DNA of 26,830 bases from Actinobacteria bacterium UBA5176 (GTDB lineage: Bacteria > Actinomycetota > UBA4738): positions 28,431-55,260 of the forward strand of contig DHWS01000105.1 in assembly GCA_002413305.1 (NCBI GenBank), written 5' to 3'. Below the pieces are notes generated by a model. It worked only from the letters and a program-made list of their open reading frames with translations, made no database searches and was not told the DNA's origin. Positions 14,432 through 26,830 of this stretch are shown here, one piece after another. Each line of letters starts with the position of its first letter. The first letter of the stretch is position 1. The position numbers and the translations under genes are program-made.

Positions 14432-15364
<933 letters not shown>

Positions 15365-15393
15365 CGGTCTGGACATGAGGGTCCGAAGCGGCC

Positions 15394-15405
15394 GGGCGAT
15401 CGCCC
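15394..15405. terminator. Palindrome after trxB, possible weak terminator
   Basis: GGGCGATCGCCC is a perfect 12-bp palindrome 30 nt after the trxB stop, followed on the plus strand by the pyrimidine tract TCTCTTCCTC. As a hairpin the stem would be only 4 bp, so it may instead be a protein-binding site. Confidence 0.25.
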
Positions 15406-15474
15406 TCTCTTCCTCGTGATCGTCGTGGCCCTCCCGGCTCCGTGCGCGCCTTGGACCCTTCACCGGCGGCACCA

Positions 15475-15529
15475 TAGCCCGATGTTCGGCGCCCCCCGCC
15501 CACTACCGCGGGGTCGTGATCGGGGGCTA
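15475..15529 (+). other. Nested inverted repeats, possible structured RNA element
   Basis: The outer arms TAGCCCGAT (15475-15483) and ATCGGGGGCTA (15519-15529) pair with a 2-nt bulge. The inner arms CCCCGC (15494-15499) and GCGGGG (15508-15513) pair perfectly around an 8-nt loop. Together they would fold into a 55-nt two-stage hairpin. No T tract follows, so it is not a standard terminator, and no known RNA family was recognised. Confidence 0.35.
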
Positions 15530-15672
15530 GGCATTCCCGCTGGCGCGTTCGAACTACCTCTCGCTGATCGCCATCCAGAGCGACTGGCACATCGGGGGCT
15601 CGTGGCGGTTAACACGACCGGATGGCACACGATGGCCGGGACCGTGTACCTGGATCCCGCGTCCGGATGAGG

Positions 15673-15698
15673 GGAATAGTGTTCAGATACCTCCGGTT
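15673..15698 (+). promoter_or_regulatory. SigR/SigH-type promoter of trxA
   Basis: GGAAT at 15673-15677, an 18-nt spacer and GTT at 15696-15698 match the SigR/SigH consensus. It is followed by a leader of about 50 nt with a GAGAGGAG ribosome-binding site (15733-15740). The spacer length equals that of the trxB promoter. Confidence 0.63.
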
Positions 15699-15752
15699 AG
15701 GAGCAGCGGCAAGCGGGAACGAGATTCTCGAAGAGAGGAGATCCTACGGACC

Positions 15753-16085
15753 ATGTCTGACAACGTCATGCACGTGAGCGACCAGGACTTCGACATGCAG
15801 GTGCTCCAATCGGCCCAGCCGGTGCTGGTGGACTTCTGGGCCGAATGGTGCGTGCCCTGCCACATGGTCTCCCCGGTCGTCGAGGAGATCGCCCGAGACC
15901 ATGCGGATTCCATGAAGGCGTACAAGCTGAACGTCGACGACAACCCGGAGACGGCCCGGAAATACGCGGTGATGAGCATCCCGACCCTGATCGTCTTCCG
16001 GGACGGACGGGAGATGGCCCGGGTGATCGGAGCTCGCGGGAAGGACGCGATCCTCCGCGAGATCCAGGCACACCTGGCCGCATAG
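15753..16085 (+). CDS. trxA: Thioredoxin (WCVPC active site)
   Basis: This 110-residue cytoplasmic thioredoxin-fold protein reduces protein disulfides and is recharged by TrxB. The redox motif is WCVPC (Trp32, Cys33, Cys36) within VDFWAEWCVPCHMVSP; the usual form is WCGPC. The cis-proline is in MSIPTLIVF, and the buried Asp is in LVDFWAEW. Length is standard and there is no signal peptide. ATG 15753 lies 12 nt after a GAGAGGAG site; this spacing is a little long and the ATG five codons later is possible. A SigR/SigH-type promoter lies upstream. The valine between the cysteines may shift the redox potential. Confidence 0.95.
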   Translation: MSDNVMHVSDQDFDMQVLQSAQPVLVDFWAEWCVPCHMVSPVVEEIARDHADSMKAYKLNVDDNPETARKYAVMSIPTLIVFRDGREMARVIGARGKDAILREIQAHLAA

Positions 16086-16160: not shown

Positions 16161-17249
16161 ATGTCGGTGCGAACCGTTTCCCGAGGCGACCGAGGCGAGG
16201 CCGTGCTGGACATCCAGGCGCGCCTCTCCGCCCTCGGCTACCGGGTCGACCCCGAAGAGCACGGCGAGTTCGGGCCCGGGACCGAACAGGCCGTGCGAGC
16301 CTTCCAGCAACACCGCCAGCTCTTGGTGGACGGCATGATCGGCAGCCACACGTGGGAGGAGCTGGTGGAGGCGGGCTTCGCGTTCGGCGACCGCGTGCTG
16401 TACCTGCGCTACCCGTCCAACCGGGGGGACGATGTCCGAACGCTCCAGCGCATGCTGAACCTCCTGGGCTTCGACGCGGGCCGTGAGGATGGGATCTTCG
16501 GGCAGCGGACCGACCGCGCGCTCCGCGAGTTCCAGAAGAACGTGGGGCTGCCCGAGGACGGGATCCTCGGTGGGACCACCGTCGACGCGTTGAAGCGGCT
16601 GCGGCCGGTCGCGCCGGGGCCGGGCCGCGCGATGGTGCGGGAGTCCGAAGCGCTTCGCCGCCTGTCGGCGACCCTGGACGGCGCACGTGTGGCGGTGGAC
16701 GCGGGGCACGGTTCGGTCGATCCCGGAGCCGCGGGTCCGGCCGGAACGACTGAGGGGGCGGCCTCGTATCCCTTCGCGCAGGCGCTGTGCACCGAGCTGT
16801 CCGCGCGCGGGGCGAACCCCGTGATCCTGCGGACCGCCCAGAACGACCCCGCGGTGTCCGACCGGGCCCGGGCGGCGAACGAGTTCGGCGCCGAGGTTCT
16901 CGTGGCCATCCACTTCAACTCGGACGCGAAGCCGACCGCCGAGGGGGCGTCGACGTACTACTACGGGCGCGAAGGGTGGTCCTCGCCGGGCGGCCAGCGA
17001 CTGGCAGAGCTCATCCAGGAGGAGCTGACGTCGCGTCTGGGCCTGAAGGACGGCCGGACCCACCCGAAGGCGCTGCCGTTGCTCCGGGAGACCCGCATGC
17101 CGGCGGTGCACGTCGAGCCCTGCTTCATCACCAACCCGCGCGAGGAGGCGCTGATCCAGGACGGATCCTTCCGCAGCCAGGTCGCGTTCTGCCTGGCCGA
17201 GGCCGTCGAGCGCTTCTTCGGGCGGGGCAAGCCGAGCGAAGGCCCGTGA
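16161..17249 (+). CDS. cwlM: CwlM-like protein: two peptidoglycan-binding domains plus amidase_3 domain
   Basis: This 362-residue protein has two PG_binding_1 repeats (about residues 7-70 and 85-148; GDRGEAVLDIQARLSALGY, then GDDVRTLQRMLNLLGF), then an N-acetylmuramoyl-L-alanine amidase_3 domain (about 174-355). The zinc ligands appear intact: His183 in VAVDAGHG, Glu198, His251 in AIHFNSD; the catalytic Glu319 is in HVEPCFITN. There is no signal peptide or membrane segment. In mycobacteria CwlM is cytoplasmic, is phosphorylated by PknB and switches on MurA, the first step of peptidoglycan synthesis; that role is likely here but inferred. It lies next to trxB-trxA as in M. tuberculosis (Rv3915). 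Its stop overlaps the GTG of the molybdenum hydroxylase FAD subunit (GTGA). Confidence 0.92.
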   Translation: MSVRTVSRGDRGEAVLDIQARLSALGYRVDPEEHGEFGPGTEQAVRAFQQHRQLLVDGMIGSHTWEELVEAGFAFGDRVLYLRYPSNRGDDVRTLQRMLNLLGFDAGREDGIFGQRTDRALREFQKNVGLPEDGILGGTTVDALKRLRPVAPGPGRAMVRESEALRRLSATLDGARVAVDAGHGSVDPGAAGPAGTTEGAASYPFAQALCTELSARGANPVILRTAQNDPAVSDRARAANEFGAEVLVAIHFNSDAKPTAEGASTYYYGREGWSSPGGQRLAELIQEELTSRLGLKDGRTHPKALPLLRETRMPAVHVEPCFITNPREEALIQDGSFRSQVAFCLAEAVERFFGRGKPSEGP

Positions 17250-18112
17250 AGCCCGCGCCGTTCGACTACGCTCGGCCCCGAAACCTCCAGGAGGCCGTGG
17301 AGCTGCTGGCCGCCCGCCCGGACGAAGCGAAGATCCTCGCCGGAGGCCAGAGCCTCGTCCCGATGATGGCCTTCCGCCTGGCGACCCCCGACGTCCTGAT
17401 CGACCTGAACGGCGTCGGCGAGCTGGAGGGCGTGCGTCTCGAGGACGGCGCCCTCGTGCTCGGCGCGATGGCCCGTCACCGGGACGCGGAGGACTTCCGG
17501 GGGTTGCGAGACCGCTGTGCACTGGTGGCCGATGCGGTCGGCCTGATCGGGCACCCGGCCATCCGCAACCGCGGGACCGTGGGGGGGAGCATCGCCCACG
17601 CCGACCCCGCGGCCGAGTGGCCGGCGGTGCTAACCGCGCTGGGCGGCTCGGTGGTCGCGGCGGGGCCGAACGGAAGCCGGACGATCGGTGCCGGCGAGCT
17701 GTTCGACACGTACTTCACGACCACGCTCGCTGCAGACGAGATCCTGGCGGAGGTTCACCTCCCCCTACCGCCAGCCGGCGCAGGATCGGCGTTCATCGAG
17801 CTGGCCCGGCGGCACGGCGACTTCGCCCTGGCCGGGGCGGCCGTGGTGCTGGAGCTGGACGGGGAGATCGTGGCCGAGGCCCGCGTGGTGCTGATCGGGG
17901 TCGCCGACCGGCCGTTCCGGGCCGTGACGGCCGAGTCGTTCCTTCGTGGAGCCGCGGCAACGGACGAAACGCTCGCCCTCGCGGCGGCTTCGATCGGGCC
18001 GGAGATCGAACCGATGTCGGACGTGCACGGGTCCTCGGACTACCGTCGCCATGTGGCCGGGGTGATGCTTCGACGCGCGTTGGAGACCGCCCGATCGAGG
18101 GTGACGGCGTGA
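17246..18112 (+). CDS. Molybdenum hydroxylase (xanthine dehydrogenase family), FAD-binding subunit
   Basis: This 288-residue subunit of CoxM/XdhB type carries FAD and accepts electrons from the 2Fe-2S subunit. FAD motifs are AGGQSLVPMM (residues 32-41) and RNRGTVGGSIAHADPAAE (107-124), both complete. GTG 17246 was chosen because it lies in the cwlM stop (GTGA) and fits the family's N-terminus (FDYARPRNLQEAVELL). It overlaps the next gene in the same way. FAD, FeS and Mo subunits follow in that order, as in many aldehyde/xanthine/CO dehydrogenase-type operons. Within the local cassette the enzyme probably hydroxylates a pyrimidine ring (see findings). Confidence 0.92.
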   Translation: MKPAPFDYARPRNLQEAVELLAARPDEAKILAGGQSLVPMMAFRLATPDVLIDLNGVGELEGVRLEDGALVLGAMARHRDAEDFRGLRDRCALVADAVGLIGHPAIRNRGTVGGSIAHADPAAEWPAVLTALGGSVVAAGPNGSRTIGAGELFDTYFTTTLAADEILAEVHLPLPPAGAGSAFIELARRHGDFALAGAAVVLELDGEIVAEARVVLIGVADRPFRAVTAESFLRGAAATDETLALAAASIGPEIEPMSDVHGSSDYRRHVAGVMLRRALETARSRVTA

Positions 18113-18600
18113 GCAGGGAACCGCGCGAGGTGGTGCTCACCGTGAACGGCCGCCGGTACTCGGCTCGCGCCGAACCCCGCACCACACTGGCCGACTTCTT
18201 GCGGGACTCGCTGGGCCTGACCGGGACGCACCTCGGATGCGAGCACGGCGTGTGCGGGGCGTGCACGGTCCTGATGGACGGCCGCTCCGTGCGAGCGTGC
18301 CTGCTGTTCGCCGTCCAGGCCGAAGGCCACGAACTCACCACGGTCGAAGGGCTGGCACCCGAAGACGGGCAGCTCAGCTCCCTGCAGCAGGCGTTCCACG
18401 AGAAGCACGCCCTCCAATGCGGGTTCTGCACGCCCGGCTTCCTGCTCTCCGCGGCCGAGCTTCTGGATCTCAAGCCACACCCCACCGAGGACGAGGTTCG
18501 CGCCTGGCTGTCCGGCAACCTCTGTCGCTGCACGGGCTACCAGAACATCGTTGACGCGGTCCTGCTGGCTTCCTCGCGTCGGGAGGAGGGGGCGCGGTGA
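18109..18600 (+). CDS. Molybdenum hydroxylase, 2Fe-2S subunit
   Basis: This 163-residue electron-transfer subunit of CoxS/XdhC type has two iron-sulfur clusters. The N-terminal ferredoxin-like domain has Cys44, Cys49, Cys52 and Cys64 (GCEHGVCGACTVLMDG). The C-terminal helical domain has Cys104, Cys107, Cys139 and Cys141 (QCGFCTPGFLL, LCRCTGYQNI). All eight ligands are present. It starts with GTG in the stop of the FAD subunit and ends over the start of the Mo subunit, so the three are made together. Confidence 0.96.
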   Translation: MSREPREVVLTVNGRRYSARAEPRTTLADFLRDSLGLTGTHLGCEHGVCGACTVLMDGRSVRACLLFAVQAEGHELTTVEGLAPEDGQLSSLQQAFHEKHALQCGFCTPGFLLSAAELLDLKPHPTEDEVRAWLSGNLCRCTGYQNIVDAVLLASSRREEGAR

Positions 18601-20975
18601 GCACGCGGATGTTCGGCGAACCCGTTCCGCGGACCGAGGACACCCGGTTCCTCACTGGTCGCGGCCGGTACACGGCGGACTTCGAACCCGGGGCGGCACA
18701 TGCGGCGTTCGCCCGGTCGGACCTTCCGCACGCGCGGATCCTGTCGATCGACACCGAGGGCGCCAAGGCCGTCGACGGCGTGCTGGGCGTGTTCACCTAT
18801 CAGGACCTGGAGGGCCAACTGGCCGAACGACTGCCCGTGCTGGTTCCGAGCGACGCTCTGATCGCCCCCCACACCCAGTACGCGCTGGCGAAGGACGAGG
18901 TCTGCTACGCCGGCGAGGTGATCGCCATGGTCGTCGCCCGCGACCGCCCCACCGCGGAGGATGCGCTCGAGCGCATCCGGGTCGAGTACGAGCCACTCAC
19001 CGCCGCCGTCTCGCTCGCGGGGGCGGCCAAGGGCGAGCCGCTCGCTCATCTCGACATGGCCGACAACGTGGCGGGCGCGATCACCGAAGAGGCCGGCGAC
19101 GTGGCCGCCGTGTTCGCCACGGCGCCTCACGTCTTCGAGTGGGAACTCCGGATGGAGCGGAGCGCGTCGATGCCGCTTGAGGGGCGAGCGGTCGTGGCGC
19201 GGTACGACGAGCTCGAAGACCGTCTCCTCCTCCACGACGCCACCCAGGCCCCGACCGGGGTTCGGTTCGGTCTGGCCATGTTGTTCGGCATGGAGATCGA
19301 ACGCGTCCATGTGGTCGCCCCCGACGTGGGCGGTGGGTTCGGCGTGAAGGTCATCCAGTTCTATCCCGAGGAGGTCATGGTCCCGTGGGCGGCCCGGCGC
19401 CTGCGTACTCCCGTGAAATGGGTCGAAGACCGGCGCGAGCACTTCATCGGCTCGAACCAGGAGCGAGGGCAGATCCACCACGTGCGGGTGGCAGCCGGCG
19501 TCGACGGCCGGATCCTCGCCCTGGAGGATCGCTTCGAGCACGATACCGGCGCGTACTGCTCGTACGGGTTGATCCTGCCGATCATCACGGCCGCCCAGCT
19601 CCCCGGGCCCTACAAGCTCGCGAACTATCGCTACGAGATGCGGTCGATCTTCACCAACACGGTCCCCACGTCGCCGTATCGCGGGGCGGGGAGGCCGCAC
19701 GCGGCGTTCGTCATGGAGCGGGTCATCGAACACCTCGCCGGGGAGCTCGGGTTGGACTCGCTGGAGGTGCGGCGGCGCAACTTCGTCCAGCCGGACGAGT
19801 TCCCGTATCACGTCGGGGTGACGTTCCAGGACGGCGGCCCGACGGTGTACGACAGCGGCGACTATCCGCGCGGCCTGGCCAGGCTGCTGGACCAGCTGGA
19901 CCTCGAGGCGACACGCGCCGAGATCGAACGGGGCCGCGCCGACGGACGGCTCCTGGGGCTCGGGTTCGGCGCGTACGTCGAAGGCACCGGGATCGGGCCG
20001 TACGAGGGCGCCTCGGTGTCGATCGGGCCTGACGGGTTGGTCTCGGTGGGGACCGCGCACGGGACGCAGGGGCAGGCCCACGAGACCGTGTTCGCGCAGA
20101 TCGTGGCCGACGAGCTCGGTGTCCCGATGGACCGGGTCCGGGTGACCACCGGCGACACCCGTCGCCTCGGGTTCGGCGTGGGGACCTACGCGTCACGGAC
20201 CGCCGTGGTCGGCGGGAACGCCGTGCTGCGCGCGGCGTCGGAGGTGAAGCGGCAGGCGGCGGCCGTTGCCGCACGCGTCATGGAGGTCGCGCCCGAGGAT
20301 CTGGTGTTCGAGGACGGCGCGGTCCATGTGGCGGGCGCGCCGGACCGTTCGATCCCCCTAGGGCGCCTGGCGATGGCCTCGAACCCCACCAGGTACGCCT
20401 TCGGTGTGGATGCGGAGGAGGGAGCCCGCCTTTCGCAGCTCGCCTACGCCGGCGGCGACCGGCCCCTCCCCGAGGGCTCGAAACCAGGCCTGGCCGCCGT
20501 TGAGTACTACTCGCCGTCCGCAGGGGTGTTCGGCTTCGGCTTCCATGCGGCGGTGGTGGACGTCGACCCCGATACCGGGTTCGTCCGGGTTCTTCGCTAT
20601 GTCGTCCACCACGACTGCGGTCGCATCATCAACCCGATGGTCGTGGAGGGACAGATCCACGGCGGTGTCGCGCAGGGGATCGGCGGGGCGTTGTACGAAC
20701 GGATCGCCTACAGCCCCGACGGGCAGATCCTGAACGCGAGCTTCATGGACTTCCTGATGGTCACCGGTGCCGAGATGCCGCGCATCGAACTCGTCCACAC
20801 GGAGACCCCCTCGCCGAGCAACCCGCTCGGCATCAAGGGGGTCGGAGAGGCGGGCACGATCCCGGTGAGCGCGGCCATCGCCAATGCCCTTTCGGACGCG
20901 CTCGGCGTCCCGGTCGACCGCATGCCGATGATGCCGGAGGACGTGTTGGAGCTGCTGCGCACCGCCCCTGGTTGA
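18597..20975 (+). CDS. Molybdenum hydroxylase, molybdopterin-binding large subunit
   Basis: This 792-residue catalytic subunit of the xanthine dehydrogenase family holds molybdopterin cytosine dinucleotide and hydroxylates its substrate using water. Key sites are GGGFG (245-249), PYRGAGR (360-366) and the catalytic glutamate in KGVGEAGT (Glu751). The active-site loop is of the YRGAGR type and lacks the AYxCSFR loop of true form I CO dehydrogenase, so aerobic CO oxidation is not supported. The substrate cannot be read from sequence. Adjacent barbiturase-type, amidase and MatB genes point to uracil or thymine. The stop is 6 nt from the convergent amidohydrolase stop with no terminator between them. 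No cofactor-insertion genes (CoxD, XdhC) are in the window. Confidence 0.94.
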   Translation: MSTRMFGEPVPRTEDTRFLTGRGRYTADFEPGAAHAAFARSDLPHARILSIDTEGAKAVDGVLGVFTYQDLEGQLAERLPVLVPSDALIAPHTQYALAKDEVCYAGEVIAMVVARDRPTAEDALERIRVEYEPLTAAVSLAGAAKGEPLAHLDMADNVAGAITEEAGDVAAVFATAPHVFEWELRMERSASMPLEGRAVVARYDELEDRLLLHDATQAPTGVRFGLAMLFGMEIERVHVVAPDVGGGFGVKVIQFYPEEVMVPWAARRLRTPVKWVEDRREHFIGSNQERGQIHHVRVAAGVDGRILALEDRFEHDTGAYCSYGLILPIITAAQLPGPYKLANYRYEMRSIFTNTVPTSPYRGAGRPHAAFVMERVIEHLAGELGLDSLEVRRRNFVQPDEFPYHVGVTFQDGGPTVYDSGDYPRGLARLLDQLDLEATRAEIERGRADGRLLGLGFGAYVEGTGIGPYEGASVSIGPDGLVSVGTAHGTQGQAHETVFAQIVADELGVPMDRVRVTTGDTRRLGFGVGTYASRTAVVGGNAVLRAASEVKRQAAAVAARVMEVAPEDLVFEDGAVHVAGAPDRSIPLGRLAMASNPTRYAFGVDAEEGARLSQLAYAGGDRPLPEGSKPGLAAVEYYSPSAGVFGFGFHAAVVDVDPDTGFVRVLRYVVHHDCGRIINPMVVEGQIHGGVAQGIGGALYERIAYSPDGQILNASFMDFLMVTGAEMPRIELVHTETPSPSNPLGIKGVGEAGTIPVSAAIANALSDALGVPVDRMPMMPEDVLELLRTAPG

Positions 20976-20981
20976 ACCTCG

Positions 20982-22112
20982 TCAGGCTCGAACCACGGCC
21001 GCCACGATGTTCCCGCCCGGCGGGCCCTGGTGGCTGTTGCGCTCTCCCCCACTGACGTAGTTCGTCGTCCGGCCGGTCACGCTGGCCACGAGCATGCCGC
21101 CCAGTGCCTTGCCGATCTGATACCCGTCATGGTCGTCGAGCAGGGTGATGTGCTGGCCGCGAACCTCGTCCTCGCCCGGGATGACGGACTTCGCGAACAC
21201 GTGGACCAGGCGCGAGAGGTCATCCTCTGAAGGGAGGCAGTCGAACTCCAACCCAGCGGAGCGCAAGGCGCCACGGACCCCTTCGGCGTCGATGAAATCC
21301 TTGGTCACTCCGTGTCCGATGCGAAGCTCGCTGTCCGACGACGCGGAGTTGCCGAAGATCAGCACCTCTCCGTGTCGCTTCTCACCGCCTGAGGAGGTCA
21401 TCGCCACCGACGAGTACAGGTCCCAGTCACGCCGAACCGCCTCGTCGGACAGCCGGCCCTCGGGCACCTCCCCGAGGGCCATTGCCGCACCGAGCGCGGC
21501 GGCATCGTTCGCGTACGCGCCGGCGCCCTCCGGGCCGAAGGTGAGGTCGCGCGTGACCACGGTGTGGCCGCGGGCTTCGGCATCCTTGATGCCGGCGGTG
21601 GTCAGGCCGGGGACCTTCACCATGGCCAGGTGCACGTCCGCCGGATCGGCGATCCCCGCGTCGGCCATCGCGCGGCCGGCGGCCTCGGCGACCTTCCGGA
21701 TCATGCCCATCCGGCCGACCTCTTCGGGCAGGATCGCTTCCGAACCCGCGATGCCGACCACCAGGCGCTTGCCGCCCGTCCCGCCCGCCTCGGGCACCTC
21801 CACCCACTCGCGGGTCACCGCGGTGATGTGCGGGGTGATGACCCCGGGGCAGCCGCCGGACAGGACGAACGTGACCCGCTCCGCGACTTCGTCGGCCGGG
21901 ATCCCCAACAGCTCGGCCGTCCAGGCTCGGAGCGCGATGTCGGCCAGCACCCGGCCCCAGTCGTCGTGGAAGCCGGTCCCCTCGGTCTTCCCCGCCAGGG
22001 CCACCAGGTTCTCGGCCGTCACGCGGCCCGAATCGGCCAGCTCCTGCAACCTCGACGTGTCGTTCGGAGCCATCATCGGGCACACGTACAGTTCGACTCG
22101 CTGAACCTTCAT
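20982..22112 (-). CDS. Ring-opening amidohydrolase, barbiturase/cyanuric acid hydrolase family
   Basis: This 376-residue protein has the threefold architecture of the AtzD/barbiturase family, one lysine and one serine per repeat: Lys42 (AGKTEG) with Ser85 (LSGGCPGV), Lys166 (MVKVPGL) with Ser240/241 (VAMTSSGGE), and Lys308 (VFAKSV) with Ser354 (YVSGGE). The end, HQGPPGGNIVAAVV, is typical. Family members open barbiturate to ureidomalonate or cyanurate to carboxybiuret. Barbiturate is preferred here because a malonate-activating enzyme and an amidase lie next door. The first Ser box reads SGGCPG where I recall SGGTxG in characterised members, so this may be a separate subgroup. ATG 22112 overlaps the amidase stop (ATGA) and has GGAGG 7 nt upstream. 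The frame further upstream is antisense. Confidence 0.85.
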   Translation of the reverse strand: MKVQRVELYVCPMMAPNDTSRLQELADSGRVTAENLVALAGKTEGTGFHDDWGRVLADIALRAWTAELLGIPADEVAERVTFVLSGGCPGVITPHITAVTREWVEVPEAGGTGGKRLVVGIAGSEAILPEEVGRMGMIRKVAEAAGRAMADAGIADPADVHLAMVKVPGLTTAGIKDAEARGHTVVTRDLTFGPEGAGAYANDAAALGAAMALGEVPEGRLSDEAVRRDWDLYSSVAMTSSGGEKRHGEVLIFGNSASSDSELRIGHGVTKDFIDAEGVRGALRSAGLEFDCLPSEDDLSRLVHVFAKSVIPGEDEVRGQHITLLDDHDGYQIGKALGGMLVASVTGRTTNYVSGGERNSHQGPPGGNIVAAVVRA

Positions 22113-23632
22113 CCACCCACCTCCCACGTCATCCAGGGTGCGGGCGCTCGTTCCTCCATCAACGCGCGGGCGACCGCCAGGACCTGGTCCTCCCGGAACG
22201 GCCGACCCACCACCTGCACACCGACCGGCAGGCCCTCGGCCGAAGCTCCGAACGGAACGCTGGCTGCCGGGACGCCGAAAAGGCTGATCAGTCGGGACGG
22301 GACCAGCACGTCCCACATCGACTGCTGGCGTCCGCCCACGCTGGGTGCCGGACCGTCCACCGGGTAGGCAGGAACCGTGGCCACGGCCATCAGCAGGATC
22401 GGAGATCGTTCGAGGCACGCAAGCAGTTCGGCTCGGAGGCGGTCACGCTCCTGCCACAGGACGGCCGGATCGCTGGCGGGCTGGCGGCGTTCGGCCTCCT
22501 CCGCGGTGGCGATGGCGGCGCGGACGTCCTCGCCCACCTCGCCCTCGCGGCCCCGGACCAGACGCCGGACGTCCTGGAGCCGGTCGAGCTCCCGGATGTC
22601 CGCGTACAGCGAACCGGCCCGCTCCAGGAAGTCCGGCGCTTCCCCCGCGAGCGCGACGCCCCGGCGCTCAAGGGCCGACCCGGCATCCCGGACCGCCTGT
22701 ATGACGTCATCACGCGGCGCTGGCCACGCGGGTCCCTCCCACATCACCACCGTGGCCGGCAGCGCGCCCGTGGAGGGCCGCAGTTCGGCGGGAACGGCGA
22801 AGGGGTCGAGGCCGTCCGGTCCCGCGACGGTCCGCAGGGCCAGTTCGAGGTCCTCCACGGATCGCGCCAGCGGCCCGACCACCTGGGCCCGCCCCTGGAG
22901 GGTCACTTCGTTCGGAACGAAGGGCTCCTGGAGGGTGGGGGCGGGGAGCTGGCCCGTCCCCGCGATCCGACCGGCGGTCGGACGAAGAGCCAGGACGCCG
23001 GTGCAGTGCGCGGGCCACCGCAGGGATCCACCGAAGTCGGTCCCCAGGCCGAGCGGCGAGCAGCCGGACGCGACGGCGGCCGCCTCGCCCCCACTCGAGC
23101 CGCCGGGGCTGAGCCGCCGAAGGGCCGGCGCCACCGGGTTGATGGTCTCCCCGAACCGCGCATTGCGCGTGTACGGGAACATGCCCCACTCTGGGCAGTT
23201 CGTCTTCCCGATGAGGATCGCGCCCGCGGCCCGGAGCCTCGCAACTGCGGTCGCATCCAGCTTCGGCACGAACTCCCCCAGGAACCGCGTGCCGGCGGTC
23301 GTTCTCACGCCGGCCGTCGCGATGAGGTCCTTCACGGTGAACGGCACGCCCGCCAGAGGGAGCTCCCCGCCGCCACTCTCGGGACCGTCGCCGGATGCGC
23401 CGTTGCCGCCGGCCAGCGTCCGGTCGAGGCGCGCGGCTTCCTCCAGCGCCCCCTCCGCCCGGAGCGTGACGATGGCGTTCAAGGCCGGGTTGGCGCGTTC
23501 GATCCGTTCGAGGTGCGCCGCCACGACCTCCCGGGCGGAGACGGTCCGGCCTCGAACCATCCGGGCGAGTTCGGTCGCCGTCCGTCCGGCGAGCTCGACC
23601 GCGCCCTCGATCCCCACGTTCCCCCCAGTCAA
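22109..23632 (-). CDS. Amidase-signature family hydrolase, candidate ureidomalonase
   Basis: This protein of up to 507 residues has a complete amidase-signature triad: the lysine in PFTVKDLIATAG (about residue 100), the cis-serine in SPGGSSGGEAAAVASG (about 175) and the nucleophile serine in GLGTDFGGSLRWPA (about 199). Members hydrolyse amide or ureido bonds, and the family includes GatA, AtzF and fatty-acid amide hydrolase. It is the first gene of a two-gene minus-strand operon with the ring-opening amidohydrolase (ATGA overlap), which suggests it acts on that enzyme's product; for ureidomalonate this would release urea and malonate. The annotated start is TTG 23632; GTG 23617, five codons later, is equally possible. 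No GatB or GatC partner is near. Confidence 0.88.
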   Translation of the reverse strand: MTGGNVGIEGAVELAGRTATELARMVRGRTVSAREVVAAHLERIERANPALNAIVTLRAEGALEEAARLDRTLAGGNGASGDGPESGGGELPLAGVPFTVKDLIATAGVRTTAGTRFLGEFVPKLDATAVARLRAAGAILIGKTNCPEWGMFPYTRNARFGETINPVAPALRRLSPGGSSGGEAAAVASGCSPLGLGTDFGGSLRWPAHCTGVLALRPTAGRIAGTGQLPAPTLQEPFVPNEVTLQGRAQVVGPLARSVEDLELALRTVAGPDGLDPFAVPAELRPSTGALPATVVMWEGPAWPAPRDDVIQAVRDAGSALERRGVALAGEAPDFLERAGSLYADIRELDRLQDVRRLVRGREGEVGEDVRAAIATAEEAERRQPASDPAVLWQERDRLRAELLACLERSPILLMAVATVPAYPVDGPAPSVGGRQQSMWDVLVPSRLISLFGVPAASVPFGASAEGLPVGVQVVGRPFREDQVLAVARALMEERAPAPWMTWEVGG

Positions 23633-23662
23633 CCTCGCTGGACCGGCCGCGCCGGCCCTGGC

Positions 23663-23672
23663 ATCCTAGCGA
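23663..23672. promoter_or_regulatory. Overlapping divergent -10 elements of the amidase operon and matB
   Basis: On the minus strand TAGGAT (23668-23663) fits a -10 about 30 nt before the amidase start. On the plus strand TAGCGA (23667-23672) ends 7 nt before ATG 23680 of the malonyl-CoA synthetase. The two share bases in a 47-nt gap, so the divergent units may be controlled together. Confidence 0.35.
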
Positions 23673-23679
23673 ACCGGCC

Positions 23680-25143
23680 ATGTTCCTTCCTTCGATCGCC
23701 GACCCATCGGATCGACCGGCACTCGTCGCCGGCGGGCGTTCGCTCTCCTACCGTGAGCTGAGCGCCGCGGCGTCGGCTCTGGCGGCGCGCCTTGAGGGAG
23801 TCGGGCGTGTTGCTCTCTGGGCCTCACCTCGCCTCGAGACCTGCGTCGGCGCGCTCGGCGCGCTCCTGGCCGGGGTGCCCGCGGTCCCCATCAACCCGAG
23901 GATCGGTTCCAGCGAACTCCACCACGTCCTGGTGGACAGCAGCCCGCAAGCGGTGATCGCTTGTGATGACGAAGCGCTCCCCGCGCCCTTCGCCCGGCTG
24001 CCGAGGCTGGTCCCGGATCTGCAGGCGCCGGGGCGGGCGCTCCCGCCCGAACCGGACGACGAAGCGGTGGCGTTCCTCTTCTACACGTCCGGGACCACCG
24101 GCCCTCCGAAGGGCGTGCTGGTGCCTCGGCGCGCCGTGGCGTCGAACCTGGACGCGCTGGCGGCCGTTTGGCGATGGACGGACCGAGACGTCCTCACGCA
24201 CGGCCTGCCACTGTTCCATGTGCACGGGCTGGTCCTCGGCGTGCTGGGCCCCCTCCGGGCCGGCGGGACGCTTCGATATGTCGGCCGGTTCTCGCCGGAG
24301 GAGATCGCCGCAGAGCTTCGGGCCGGCGCGACCATGCTGTTCGCCGTCCCGACCATGTACCACGTGCTGGCCGAGGCGGCGGAACGGGATCCGACGGTGC
24401 GCGACGCGCTTGGGGGGGCGCGCCTGCTCGTGTCCGGCTCCGCCCCCCTGCCGATCCGGGAGTTCCGGCGCATCGAAGCGGCCACCGGCCGGCGGATCGT
24501 CGAACGGTACGGGCTGACCGAAACGCTCATGAACTGCGCCACGCCGAGCGATGCCGAGCCGCGTCCCGGCTCCGTCGGTCCGCCGCTTCCTGGGGTCGAC
24601 CTCCGCCTCGTGGACGACGAGGGCGGCGCTCTCGACCCGGACGACAGCGAGTCGATCGGAGAGGTGCTCGTCCGCGGACCGAACCTCTTCCTCGGCTACC
24701 TCAACCGTCCGGAGGCGACCGCGGAGGTCGTCCGTGACGGGTGGTTCAGCACGGGCGACCTGGCAACCCGGGATGCCGGTGGCTGGGTTCGGATCGTGGG
24801 CCGGCGGGCGACCGACCTCATCAAGACCGGCGGGTACAAGGTCGGGGCCGGTGAGGTCGAAGCCGCGCTGCTCGAGCATCCCGCAGTCACGGAGGCGGCG
24901 GTCCTCGGCGAGCCGGACGACCGCCTTGGAGAACGCATCGTGGCCTGGGTGGTGCTTCGTCCCGAAGCGGCGGGCTCCGCCGCCTCACGGCCCTCGGCGG
25001 CCGAGCTGGCCGATCATGTCGCCGCATCGCTGGCACCCCACAAGCGTCCCCGCGAGGTCCGGTTCGTGGACGCCCTACCACGCAACGAGATGGGAAAGGT
25101 CCGCAAGGGTGCGCTTCGCGAGCCGCCCTCGGGTTCGGCCTAG
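23680..25143 (+). CDS. matB: Malonyl-CoA synthetase (MatB-like acyl-CoA ligase)
   Basis: This 487-residue ANL-superfamily ligase makes malonyl-CoA (or methylmalonyl-CoA) from the acid, ATP and CoA. Motifs are FYTSGTTGPPKGVLVPRRA (about 142-160), LPLFHVHGLVLGVLGPLR, VERYGLTETLMN (near 275), WFSTGDLATRD and the C-terminal lysine in PRNEMGKVRKGAL. From memory, the sequence follows Streptomyces coelicolor MatB almost block by block and has its short length, clearly closer than to acetyl- or long-chain acyl-CoA synthetases. No decarboxylase or MatC transporter is next to it, so malonate probably comes from the neighbouring amidase. The stop overlaps by 4 nt with the end of a possible small minus-strand gene. 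Confidence 0.9.
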   Translation: MFLPSIADPSDRPALVAGGRSLSYRELSAAASALAARLEGVGRVALWASPRLETCVGALGALLAGVPAVPINPRIGSSELHHVLVDSSPQAVIACDDEALPAPFARLPRLVPDLQAPGRALPPEPDDEAVAFLFYTSGTTGPPKGVLVPRRAVASNLDALAAVWRWTDRDVLTHGLPLFHVHGLVLGVLGPLRAGGTLRYVGRFSPEEIAAELRAGATMLFAVPTMYHVLAEAAERDPTVRDALGGARLLVSGSAPLPIREFRRIEAATGRRIVERYGLTETLMNCATPSDAEPRPGSVGPPLPGVDLRLVDDEGGALDPDDSESIGEVLVRGPNLFLGYLNRPEATAEVVRDGWFSTGDLATRDAGGWVRIVGRRATDLIKTGGYKVGAGEVEAALLEHPAVTEAAVLGEPDDRLGERIVAWVVLRPEAAGSAASRPSAAELADHVAASLAPHKRPREVRFVDALPRNEMGKVRKGALREPPSGSA

Positions 25144-25319: not shown

Positions 25320-26183
25320 CTACTCTGGAGCCAGCCCGGGGCCCGAACCGATGATCTCGGACACGATCCGCTCGAGGTCCTCCTTCGAGCCGAACTCCAC
25401 CACGATCCGGCCCTTTCGCTTGCCAAGTGAAACGCGCACCCGGGTCGCGAGCTGTTCGCTCAGGATCTCTTCGACCTCGGCCATCGCCGGGTCCGGGGTG
25501 CGGGACGACGCCGAGCCCCTGGTCACGGGATGCTCCGCGTAGCTCCGCACGAGCTCTTCGACCTGCCGCACGGAAAGCCCTTCGGCGGCGACACGCAACG
25601 CGAGCATCGACCTGGCCTCGTCGTCGGGGAGCCCAAGGAGCGCCCGCGCGTGTCCCGCCTGGATCCGCCCCTCCGCGAGGAGCCGCTGGACTTCCCCCGG
25701 AAGCGACAGCAGCCGCATGGTATTGGCCACATGAGCGCGCGAATATCCGAGCCGCTCCGCGACCGTCTCCTGGGTGACGCCCAGATCCTCCAGGAGCTCC
25801 TGGAACGCCGCCGCCATCTCGAGTGGGGCGAGGTCCTCCCGATGGAGGTTCTCGATCAACGCCTCGCGAAGCGATTCGGTGTCGTCCGTCTCGCGCACGA
25901 TGGCCGGGATCGTGGCCAGCCCCGCCAGACGGGCCGCTCGGAGCCGCCGCTCTCCGGCAACCAGCTCGTAGCCGGAATCACGCCGCCGGACCACGATGGG
26001 CTGCAGCACGCCGACCTCCCGGATCGAACGGGCCAGGGCCGCCAGCGGCTCCTCATCGAACTCCAGCCTCGGTTGGCGCGCGTTCGGCGCGACCGCGCTC
26101 ACCGGGATCTCGAGCAGACCACCCTGCTCCGCCGCCCCCGGGATCAGTGAGGACAGACCGCGACCCAGACCACCTCGCTTCAC
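25320..26183 (-). CDS. parB: Chromosome-partitioning protein ParB
   Basis: This 287-residue protein binds centromere-like parS sites, clamps DNA using CTP and works with ParA to move origins apart. The N-terminal KRGGLGRGLSSLIPG tail is the ParA-stimulating segment. The CTP-binding boxes are GERRLRAARLAG (77-88) and ENLHREDLAP (111-120). A helix-turn-helix lies at about 135-160 (TVAERLGYSRAHVANTMRLL) and a C-terminal dimerisation domain at about 235-280. GTG 26183 overlaps the parA stop (GTGA) and has GAGGAGGG 5 nt upstream, so it is chosen over an upstream in-frame ATG at 26216. No consensus parS was seen in the window. Confidence 0.96.
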   Translation of the reverse strand: MKRGGLGRGLSSLIPGAAEQGGLLEIPVSAVAPNARQPRLEFDEEPLAALARSIREVGVLQPIVVRRRDSGYELVAGERRLRAARLAGLATIPAIVRETDDTESLREALIENLHREDLAPLEMAAAFQELLEDLGVTQETVAERLGYSRAHVANTMRLLSLPGEVQRLLAEGRIQAGHARALLGLPDDEARSMLALRVAAEGLSVRQVEELVRSYAEHPVTRGSASSRTPDPAMAEVEEILSEQLATRVRVSLGKRKGRIVVEFGSKEDLERIVSEIIGSGPGLAPE

Positions 26184-26830
26184 TCTCGCCCTCCTCTCGG
26201 CCTCCCGAGCATCCACCGGCGCCTCGAACCCGCTCCCTCCGCAGCTCGATCCATGCCCGGAGATGGCGCTTCCGGGTGATCCACCGGCCCTCTATCTCCG
26301 CCTTGGCCCTCCGGTGACGACACATCCAGCTCCTCGGGTGACGACAGCTCCGCGTCCTCCGCAGGTGACGGTTCCATCTCCGCTGCGGTGTCAGACTCCT
26401 CGGACCCGGCTTGTGGCTCGGTGACTTCAGCCACGACCTCGGGCGTAGCGAAAGGTCGCGTTCCCCGCATATCCATTGCCTCCAGATCCTCGTCGATGGC
26501 GCCGAATGTCTCCGGCCCGCGTTCGAGGAGCTCCTGGGCGAGCTTCCGGTACGCCTGGGCACCCTTCGACGCGGAGTCGTACTGGGTGATCGGCTTCCCG
26601 TAGCCCGGGGCCTCGGCCAACCGGACGGATCTGGGTATGACACTCTCATACACTCGAGATCCGAAGTACGCCCGGACTTCGGAAACCACCTGATCCGCGA
26701 GCTTGGTCCGGCCATCGAACATCGTCATCACGATGCCGGTGAGCCGCAACGTCGGGTTGACGTTCTGCTGCACCAGTCGCACGTTCCGAAGCAACTGACC
26801 GAGGCCCTCCAGCGCGTAGTACTCGCACTG
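26180..26830 (-). CDS. parA: Chromosome-partitioning ATPase ParA, 3' part, with acidic C-terminal extension
   Basis: The frame is open from the window edge (QCEYYALEGLGQLL, the conserved ParA/Soj segment) and gives the last 216 residues. The Walker A part lies outside the window. Conserved pieces present are LTGIVMTMFDGRTKLADQVV, VIPRSVRLAEAPGYGKPI and the usual last helix YRKLAQELLERG. About 110 further residues, rich in Glu, Asp, Pro and Ser, follow before the stop; most chromosomal ParA proteins end near ELLERG. ParA is the ATPase that drives origin segregation on the nucleoid. It is translated with parB through a GTGA overlap. A real extension is favoured because the frame stays open to the parB junction. 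Confidence 0.92.
   Translation of the reverse strand, partial: QCEYYALEGLGQLLRNVRLVQQNVNPTLRLTGIVMTMFDGRTKLADQVVSEVRAYFGSRVYESVIPRSVRLAEAPGYGKPITQYDSASKGAQAYRKLAQELLERGPETFGAIDEDLEAMDMRGTRPFATPEVVAEVTEPQAGSEESDTAAEMEPSPAEDAELSSPEELDVSSPEGQGGDRGPVDHPEAPSPGMDRAAEGAGSRRRWMLGRPRGGRE

Follow-up and report, generated by a model that had tools for sequence, protein, structure and literature searches.

Can six adjacent genes of a soil actinobacterium carry a pyrimidine from uracil to malonyl-CoA? The question is raised by a cassette at positions 17246-25143 of a 26,830-nucleotide stretch of Actinobacteria bacterium UBA5176 (contig DHWS01000105.1; the whole stretch is called the window hereafter), in which an initial annotation had seen the three subunits of a molybdenum (Mo) hydroxylase, a ring-opening amidohydrolase, an amidase and a MatB-like ligase lying together. 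Open reading frames (ORFs) and Pfam agree with this description, every one of the six proteins having a strong match in a profile scan (Table 1). The oxidative pyrimidine pathway of Rhodococcus runs through uracil/thymine dehydrogenase, barbiturase and ureidomalonase (Soong, Ogawa and Shimizu, as cited in PMC3758960). The cassette contains a candidate family for each of these steps, and differs from the Rhodococcus pathway in having a Group V, not a Group VI, ring-opener and an additional MatB-like ligase.

We consider it probable (about 0.6) that the cassette is an oxidative route for uracil, or for cytosine after deamination, ending at malonyl-CoA. The Mo hydroxylase would hydroxylate uracil at C6 to give barbiturate, and the ring-opener, a cyclic amide hydrolase (CyAH) of Group V, would open the ring to ureidomalonate, taking the place of the Group VI barbiturase found in other genomes whose Mo hydroxylase is of this type. 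The amidase would then split ureidomalonate into malonate and urea, and the MatB-like ligase would turn malonate into malonyl-CoA. We infer each substrate from gene identity, motifs, neighbourhood, clade and co-occurrence, all of which are observed. Two lines of evidence speak for what the initial annotation proposed. A pyrimidine role is supported by the NCS2 or NCS1 permeases and cytosine-deaminase-like genes carried by relatives of the cassette, and the Mo hydroxylase is supported as the first step because its clade is common to, and co-occurs with, CyAHs of the barbiturase type (hereafter Bar-type, after the barbiturase Bar). The last two steps are more weakly suggested, through the broad families of the amidase and the ligase.

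To our knowledge, uracil/thymine dehydrogenase and ureidomalonase are activities without assigned genes, and we found no paper assigning them in the open-licence literature, subscription papers being mostly outside this search. The locus and its relatives supply concrete, co-occurring gene candidates for both, and the pathway reading offers the Group V CyAHs a testable substrate.

The Mo hydroxylase and its clade

The three subunits show the make-up of the xanthine oxidase family: a [2Fe-2S] subunit with the motifs CEHGVC and CGFC, a flavin adenine dinucleotide (FAD) subunit with AGGQSL and TVGG, and a molybdopterin-binding large subunit with PYRGAGR and GVGE, the catalytic Glu motif being present. 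In a tree of 46 large subunits, from which frames shorter than 600 amino acids or under the score limit were excluded (including L181 and a broken copy in L013), 27 sequences fall on one side of a branch with 100/99 support and 19 homologues on the other. The clade of 27 is made up of three enzymes from the window's family, ten from CyAH loci of Chloroflexi and Dormibacterota, and 14 from genomes with a Bar-type CyAH.

The large subunit of the window passes the NCBIfam model NF040766 (CODH_aero_grp5) with 1060 bits against a cut-off of 950. Five other members of the clade score 1138-1503 and all pass, while five paralogues score 561-724 and all fail, so that in this small test the cut-off separates the clade. 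The name attached to NF040766 applies to the window and to L012, L167, L170, L178 and L197. The motif AYxCSFR is the typical active-site loop of form I carbon monoxide (CO) dehydrogenase; it occurs in none of the 46 rows of the tree. Form I CO dehydrogenase was rejected for the window, whose large subunit has PYRGAGR in its place and reaches 491 bits where TIGR02416 demands 991. Although the window passes a model named for CO dehydrogenase, its context argues for the oxidation of pyrimidines and not of CO, and the NF040766 group is likely to be misnamed. If so, many aerobic CO dehydrogenases named through this model would be pyrimidine dehydrogenases, and estimates of CO-oxidising potential drawn from sequence would be affected.

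Co-occurrence with ring-openers in Actinomycetota

We searched 396 genomes of Actinomycetota, counting the Mo enzyme as present where a large subunit was at least 53% identical to that of L167 and scoring the two best first-look candidates of each genome. A CyAH was found in 26 genomes and the Mo large subunit in 30 (29 full-length, one partial at 73%): 23 genomes have both, 3 the CyAH alone, 7 the Mo gene alone and 363 neither. A close relative of the Mo enzyme is thus present in 23 of the 26 genomes with a CyAH versus 7 of the 370 without (Fisher p 4e-28, without correction for shared ancestry). Two of the three CyAH-only genomes show cyanurate-hydrolase residues. According to residue signatures, the 23 genomes with both genes are the three of the window's family and 20 with a Bar-type CyAH, and the Mo gene is present in 20 of the 21 Bar-type genomes of the sample. 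In half of these 20 the Mo gene and the CyAH are found on one contig, at distances of 5.7 to 33 kb; in the other 10 they are on different contigs.

The same pattern is seen within the order of the window: the three of its 27 genomes that have a CyAH are exactly the three whose Mo large subunit shows 81-100% identity; the remaining matches are at most 47% identical over more than half the length, or are short C-terminal pieces of up to 60%. Of 12 extended regions (L165-L176), 11 have an amidase match no more than about 2.5 kb from the Mo large subunit; the match is weak in L175 (60 bits), and L168 has none. The initial annotation knew of no well-described single locus covering all four steps with the Mo hydroxylase included; this was too narrow a view, since other actinobacterial genomes of the Bar type have the same Mo enzyme with an amidase beside it. 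In G444, a member of the Mo clade lies about 19 kb from a Bar-like CyAH (L178).

Related loci in Chloroflexi and Dormibacterota

Fourteen named loci were compared, of which one (L014) appears to be genome G002 of the window's own family. The Mo large subunit adjoins the CyAH in 12 of the 14, the other two ending at the CyAH or 0.5 kb past it, and an amidase precedes the CyAH in 13, the fourteenth beginning inside the CyAH. Since the same families adjoin in these records, the cassette is more than a chance assemblage. All six loci covered far enough on both sides carry a nucleobase permease and a cytosine-deaminase-like gene: four an NCS2 permease with a cytosine-deaminase-like gene (L006, L008, L011, L012), and two an NCS1 permease with both cytosine deaminase and adenine deaminase (L002, L005). 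Two of the deaminases were scanned; that of L002 passes the cytosine deaminase model and that of L012 fails it. The permease of L012 passes the NCS2 superfamily model and fails the uracil-permease and RutG models. In all eight loci that extend far enough (L002, L005-L009, L011, L012), the gene after that of the FAD subunit belongs to the cyclase family; in L012 it lies at 15207-15989 and matches PF04199.

A Group V cyclic amide hydrolase

Calling the ring-opener 'barbiturase-family', as was done initially, is right at the level of the superfamily: it matches PF09663 (Table 1) and keeps the Ser and Lys of the three dyads, read by eye from HMMER alignments. Taken strictly the term fails, as three indels and the clade place the enzyme in Group V. 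Among solved structures it matches 5hy0 best (424 bits), ahead of the cyanuric acid amidohydrolase 6bum (294) and the barbiturase Bar, 5hwe (228). We take 5hy0 to be the Group V enzyme of Frankia; a fragment of it was found exactly in L126 (genome G478). Frankia sp. EuI1c is among the organisms listed in Group V in PMC3758960. The window enzyme has in common with 5hy0 a 4-residue insertion, a 2-residue deletion and a 2-residue insertion in the metal loop. In the CyAH tree (built without L014, L070, L013 and L061, and with 13 of 35 Bar-like regions), two enzymes of the window's family and 11 from Chloroflexi and Dormibacterota group together at 100/99, this group joins 5hy0, L125 and L127 at 97/89, and a 100/100 branch parts the Group V side from the Bar and cyanurate-hydrolase references, long branches being flagged. 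By clade and shared indels, the window CyAH thus belongs with Group V, which also includes AZC_3203 of A. caulinodans. It is 52-54% identical to the four other actinobacterial members of the group that were found, and roughly 40-48% identical to Bar-type enzymes. Two placements in the tree stand apart. L129 (G494), which carries the BAR label only by default, neighbours L128 and has a very long branch; L127b, labelled as Group V, is found on the side of the cyanurate hydrolases.

Our comparison of residues rests on the columns of Arg194, Thr320, Arg324 and Ser343-Gly345 and on the stretches aligned with them. The Group VI barbiturase signature is given in PMC3758960 as Asn195, His321, Lys325, Val345 and Ser/Ala346. 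The window CyAH has Asn and Lys at both Arg positions of the cyanurate hydrolases, as barbiturase does, and its dyad Ser and Lys line up with those of Bar. Unlike Bar, it has Gly, Gly and a gap or Tyr (depending on the alignment) where Bar has Val, Ser and His, and it lies on the opposite side of the 100/100 branch. It therefore fails the Group VI signature and falls outside the Bar clade.

The two trees disagree. That of the CyAHs joins the window's family with Chloroflexi and Dormibacterota (100/99); in that of the Mo large subunits, the Chloroflexi and Dormibacterota enzymes are sister to those of the Bar-type genomes, and the union with the window's family is rejected (approximately unbiased test, p 0.0003, carried out after the tree was seen). 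This conflict is most simply read as an exchange of the ring-opener beside a retained Mo enzyme, from which we infer that Group V and Bar-type ring-openers may be functional equivalents.

Amidase and ligase

The amidase carries a GGSSGG motif and is a candidate ureidomalonase. It groups with the amidases beside the Group V CyAHs of G473 and G664 (SH-like approximate likelihood ratio support 99, in a quick tree with long branches), and the pairing of amidase and CyAH recurs in the Group V loci L127 and L128. AtzE was rejected for this gene (NF006631, 200 bits for a cut-off of 461; TIGR02715, 197 for 426).

The ligase has the motif ERYGLTETLMN and matches the structure 3nyq, 'Malonyl-CoA Ligase', with 594 bits over nearly its full length, the next structure scoring 278. 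We take 3nyq to be the Streptomyces MatB, active on malonate and methylmalonate. The ligase passes NF005858 'acyl-CoA synthetase' (652 bits against 575). Its counterparts in Chloroflexi and Dormibacterota are 39-41% identical, that of L012, the sole one scanned, being closer to NF005702 'malonyl-CoA synthase'. In G002, the alignment of the MatB-like gene (L070:4681-6017) is split in two by a gap, as that of a broken or misassembled gene would be.

Points against the uracil route

Several observations weigh against a uracil route, and the first of them bear on these last two steps. The amidase looks generic: its scores stay below the cut-off for each of the 25 NCBIfam models shown, and it is 29-32% identical to its Chloroflexi and Dormibacterota counterparts; over all 26 amidases compared outside its own family, identity is 29-45%. 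Its step is weak by sequence because these amidases form no single clear orthologous group. The ligase fails NF005702 (347 bits against 558), in contrast to its near full-length match to 3nyq, and we call it MatB-like only; a MatB-like gene is present in five of the seven sufficiently long Chloroflexi and Dormibacterota loci and missing from two. To describe the pathway as 'complete' was thus too strong.

The ring-opener brings difficulties of its own. The single Group V enzyme examined in PMC3758960, AZC_3203, hydrolysed neither barbiturate nor cyanurate in the account given there. The Val and Ser/Ala/Gly of barbiturases are replaced by Gly-Gly in the window CyAH. A later paper on CyAH structures reportedly found no substrate for class V either. 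The window also differs from other actinobacterial Group V loci in having the Mo clade nearby: no member of it was found in L125, L126 and L128, nor in the extensions of L126 and L128, and for the Group V locus of G473 the one Mo homologue seen, in L181, is 31% identical.

The association with the Mo enzyme is not strict either. Seven genomes of the 396 have the Mo gene without a CyAH. A wider search in Actinomycetia gave CyAH matches in 82 of 394 genomes, a few weak or fragmentary, of which 40 regions were taken; the Mo clade is present in 5 of the 35 Bar-like ones (L130-L164, up to 20 kb each, CyAH 38-45% identical). In two Bar-type loci, L051 and L150, the Mo hydroxylase is another, distantly related one, counted among the 19 outside the clade. 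Lastly, neither an NCS2 permease nor a urease alpha domain was found in the window's genome, which is 81% complete, and the one NCS1 permease that it has is not cassette-specific, 24 of the 27 genomes of the order having one.

Other readings of the cassette

Is the pyrimidine thymine rather than uracil? The Mo enzyme would then yield 5-methylbarbiturate, which the Group V CyAH would open, the amidase would release methylmalonate, and the ligase would make methylmalonyl-CoA. We think this unlikely, even if it would explain the failure of a Group V enzyme on plain barbiturate and suits a ligase whose closest solved relative, 3nyq, is active on methylmalonate too. A steric role has been proposed for the barbiturase Val in PMC3758960. 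With Val345 and Ser346 replaced by Gly-Gly, the pocket of the window CyAH may have room for the methyl group; this argument is weak, since cyanurate hydrolases share the Gly-Gly, and the cytosine-deaminase-like genes of the relatives point to uracil.

We give rather little credence to the breakdown of another N-heterocycle or cyclic imide in which uracil is not involved. We know of no substrate assigned to a Group V CyAH, among solved structures the large subunit matches quinoline 2-oxidoreductase best (1t3q, 463 bits), and genes for adenine deaminase or of the phosphorylase family stand beside some of the relatives; against this, the Mo clade is common to genomes and loci with a Bar-type CyAH, and nucleobase-type permeases and deaminases recur.

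It is very improbable that the six genes are chance neighbours or an assembly chimera. The genome is a draft of 176 contigs, and in six relatives the flanking genes stand together with no cassette, although two of the six carry its genes elsewhere. Against this, the Chloroflexi and Dormibacterota records show this set of genes side by side, GC content is 0.66-0.74 in each 1-kb step of the window, the join to the left flank is a clean 4-bp overlap, and the CyAH protein of the window was counted in identical form on 13 contigs, the longest of 87 kb.

A cyanuric acid hydrolase with an AtzE-like amidase is very improbable and was rejected: one source gives the name cyanuric acid amidohydrolase to many of the 120 closest relatives listed, and the CyAH passes the superfamily model TIGR02714, but it scores 319 against the 360 bits of NF052395, the AtzE cut-offs are missed as well, the two Arg (R194, R324) that mark cyanurate hydrolases together with the motif SGGxExQGPxGGGP (as described in PMC9118981) are Asn and Lys, the motif reads SGGERNSHQGPPGGN, and the 100/100 branch separates it from these enzymes.

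Layout and genomic site of the cassette

Table 1. Genes of the cassette and its flanks, in window coordinates
Feature	Position	Strand	Pfam evidence
Peptidoglycan amidase (cwlM), left flank	16161..17249	+	PF01471, PF01520
FAD-binding (medium) Mo hydroxylase subunit, FAD_binding_5/CO_deh_flav_C	17246..18112	+	PF00941 158 bits, PF03450 92 bits
[2Fe-2S] (small) Mo hydroxylase subunit, Fer2/Fer2_2	18109..18600	+	PF01799 110 bits, PF00111 37 bits
Molybdopterin (large) subunit, candidate uracil dehydrogenase	18597..20975	+	Ald_Xan_dh_C/MoCoBD_1/MoCoBD_2
Cyclic amide hydrolase (CyAH, Toblerone family), Group V type	20982..22112	-	PF09663 Amido_AtzD_TrzD 374 bits
Amidase-signature enzyme, candidate ureidomalonase	22109..23632	-	PF01425 Amidase 286 bits
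MatB-like acyl-CoA ligase, candidate malonyl/methylmalonyl-CoA ligase	23680..25143	+	AMP-binding/AMP-binding_C
ParB, right flank	25320..26216	-	PF02195, PF17762, PF23552
ParA-like frame, beyond ParB	26180 to window end	-	frame

The Mo genes converge on the CyAH-amidase pair across a gap of 6 bp, and the ligase diverges from the amidase, 47 bp separating the ORF starts; with strands convergent and then divergent, the cassette is not one operon but three transcription units. Four-base GTGA/ATGA overlaps join cwlM to the FAD subunit (whose GTG start overlaps the cwlM stop), the FAD to the [2Fe-2S] subunit, the latter to the large subunit, and the amidase to the CyAH. The TTG start of the amidase is the mechanical ORF start, and the true start may be further in. 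The left-flank peptidoglycan amidase is presumably cwlM, from its position. Further left are genes for PolyA_pol/HD, DUF6049, MurJ, a protein kinase, a sigma-70 factor, zinc-finger proteins, TrxB and TrxA. A plasmid search returned 132 records, every one below 60% identity.

ParB loci were found in 23 of the 27 genomes of the order, the window's (a draft of 2.99 Mb) included. In six relatives (G002, G004, G005, G006, G007, G016) cwlM and parB converge across an empty gap of about 0.13-0.3 kb, and the cassette therefore fills a junction that is empty elsewhere; at the 16 other parB loci, no cwlM was seen within the up to 1.5 kb covered. All four functions co-occur in the three genomes of the window's family, the FAD subunits of G002 and G007 being 63-67% and their [2Fe-2S] subunits about 75% identical to the window's. 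In both of these genomes the CyAH, amidase and ligase are on one contig and the Mo genes on another, neither at the cwlM-parB junction. In G007 the sequence past the CyAH and the Mo genes excludes the window's arrangement, a further point against our reading; in G002 the CyAH contig ends inside the CyAH, and the Mo contig, which extends about 1 kb beyond the large subunit, has no CyAH there. These arrangements speak against strict conservation of a single locus within the family. Genes scattered among relatives had been named at the outset as grounds for refutation; the linkage holds across phyla and is broken within the window's family, in G007.

Variants at related Mo hydroxylases

Bar-type loci differ from the window in often carrying a carbamate-kinase-like gene, and in some cases AllG/AllH or hydantoinase A, the latter in L135. 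An amino-acid-kinase-family gene, which we read as carbamate kinase, occurs in 30 of the 35 regions L130-L164. Two loci with a Bar-type CyAH (L063:3104-8188 and L056:6288-8125) hold AllG (PF06545), AllH (PF11392), an FdrA-like CoA-ligase-domain protein and an amino-acid kinase, the FdrA-like assignments here and below being drawn from Pfam and ORF clusters. The breakdown of oxamate and allantoin is known to involve AllFGH and carbamate kinase (PMC12625717, PMC9843812). From this gene content, it is possible that the Bar-type variants perform an ATP-yielding split of the carbamoyltransferase type, giving carbamoyl phosphate instead of urea.

Three genomes of another family (L197, L198, L199), placed by identity alone and not in the Mo tree, have a large subunit 64-66% identical to the window's and no PF09663 gene; AllG, a ligase and an amidase lie near the Mo large subunit. 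Tentatively, and short of even odds, the 'CO dehydrogenase group 5' clade as a whole may be the uracil dehydrogenase of Actinomycetota, Chloroflexota and Dormibacterota, pairing with ring-openers that can stand in for one another: a barbiturase of Group VI, a CyAH of Group V, or a hydantoinase A/B-type enzyme in genomes without a CyAH (L197 and L201, with L198 and L199 by ORF reading). The Group V substrate would then be barbiturate or a 5-substituted barbiturate.

The segment L197:2713-12059 contains hydantoinase A, hydantoinase B and an FdrA-like gene according to Pfam, plus a cyclase, and L198 and L199 show hydantoinase-A-like frames by ORF reading only. In G473 (L127:1-11596), the Group V CyAH adjoins an amidase, and the tree places a second CyAH on the side of the cyanurate hydrolases. 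The same genome has a UreG-family frame, a urease-like frame recognised by eye and an ATP-binding cassette (ABC) permease; further up (L127/L181) are matches to cytosine deaminase (69%) and to an NCS1 permease (52%).

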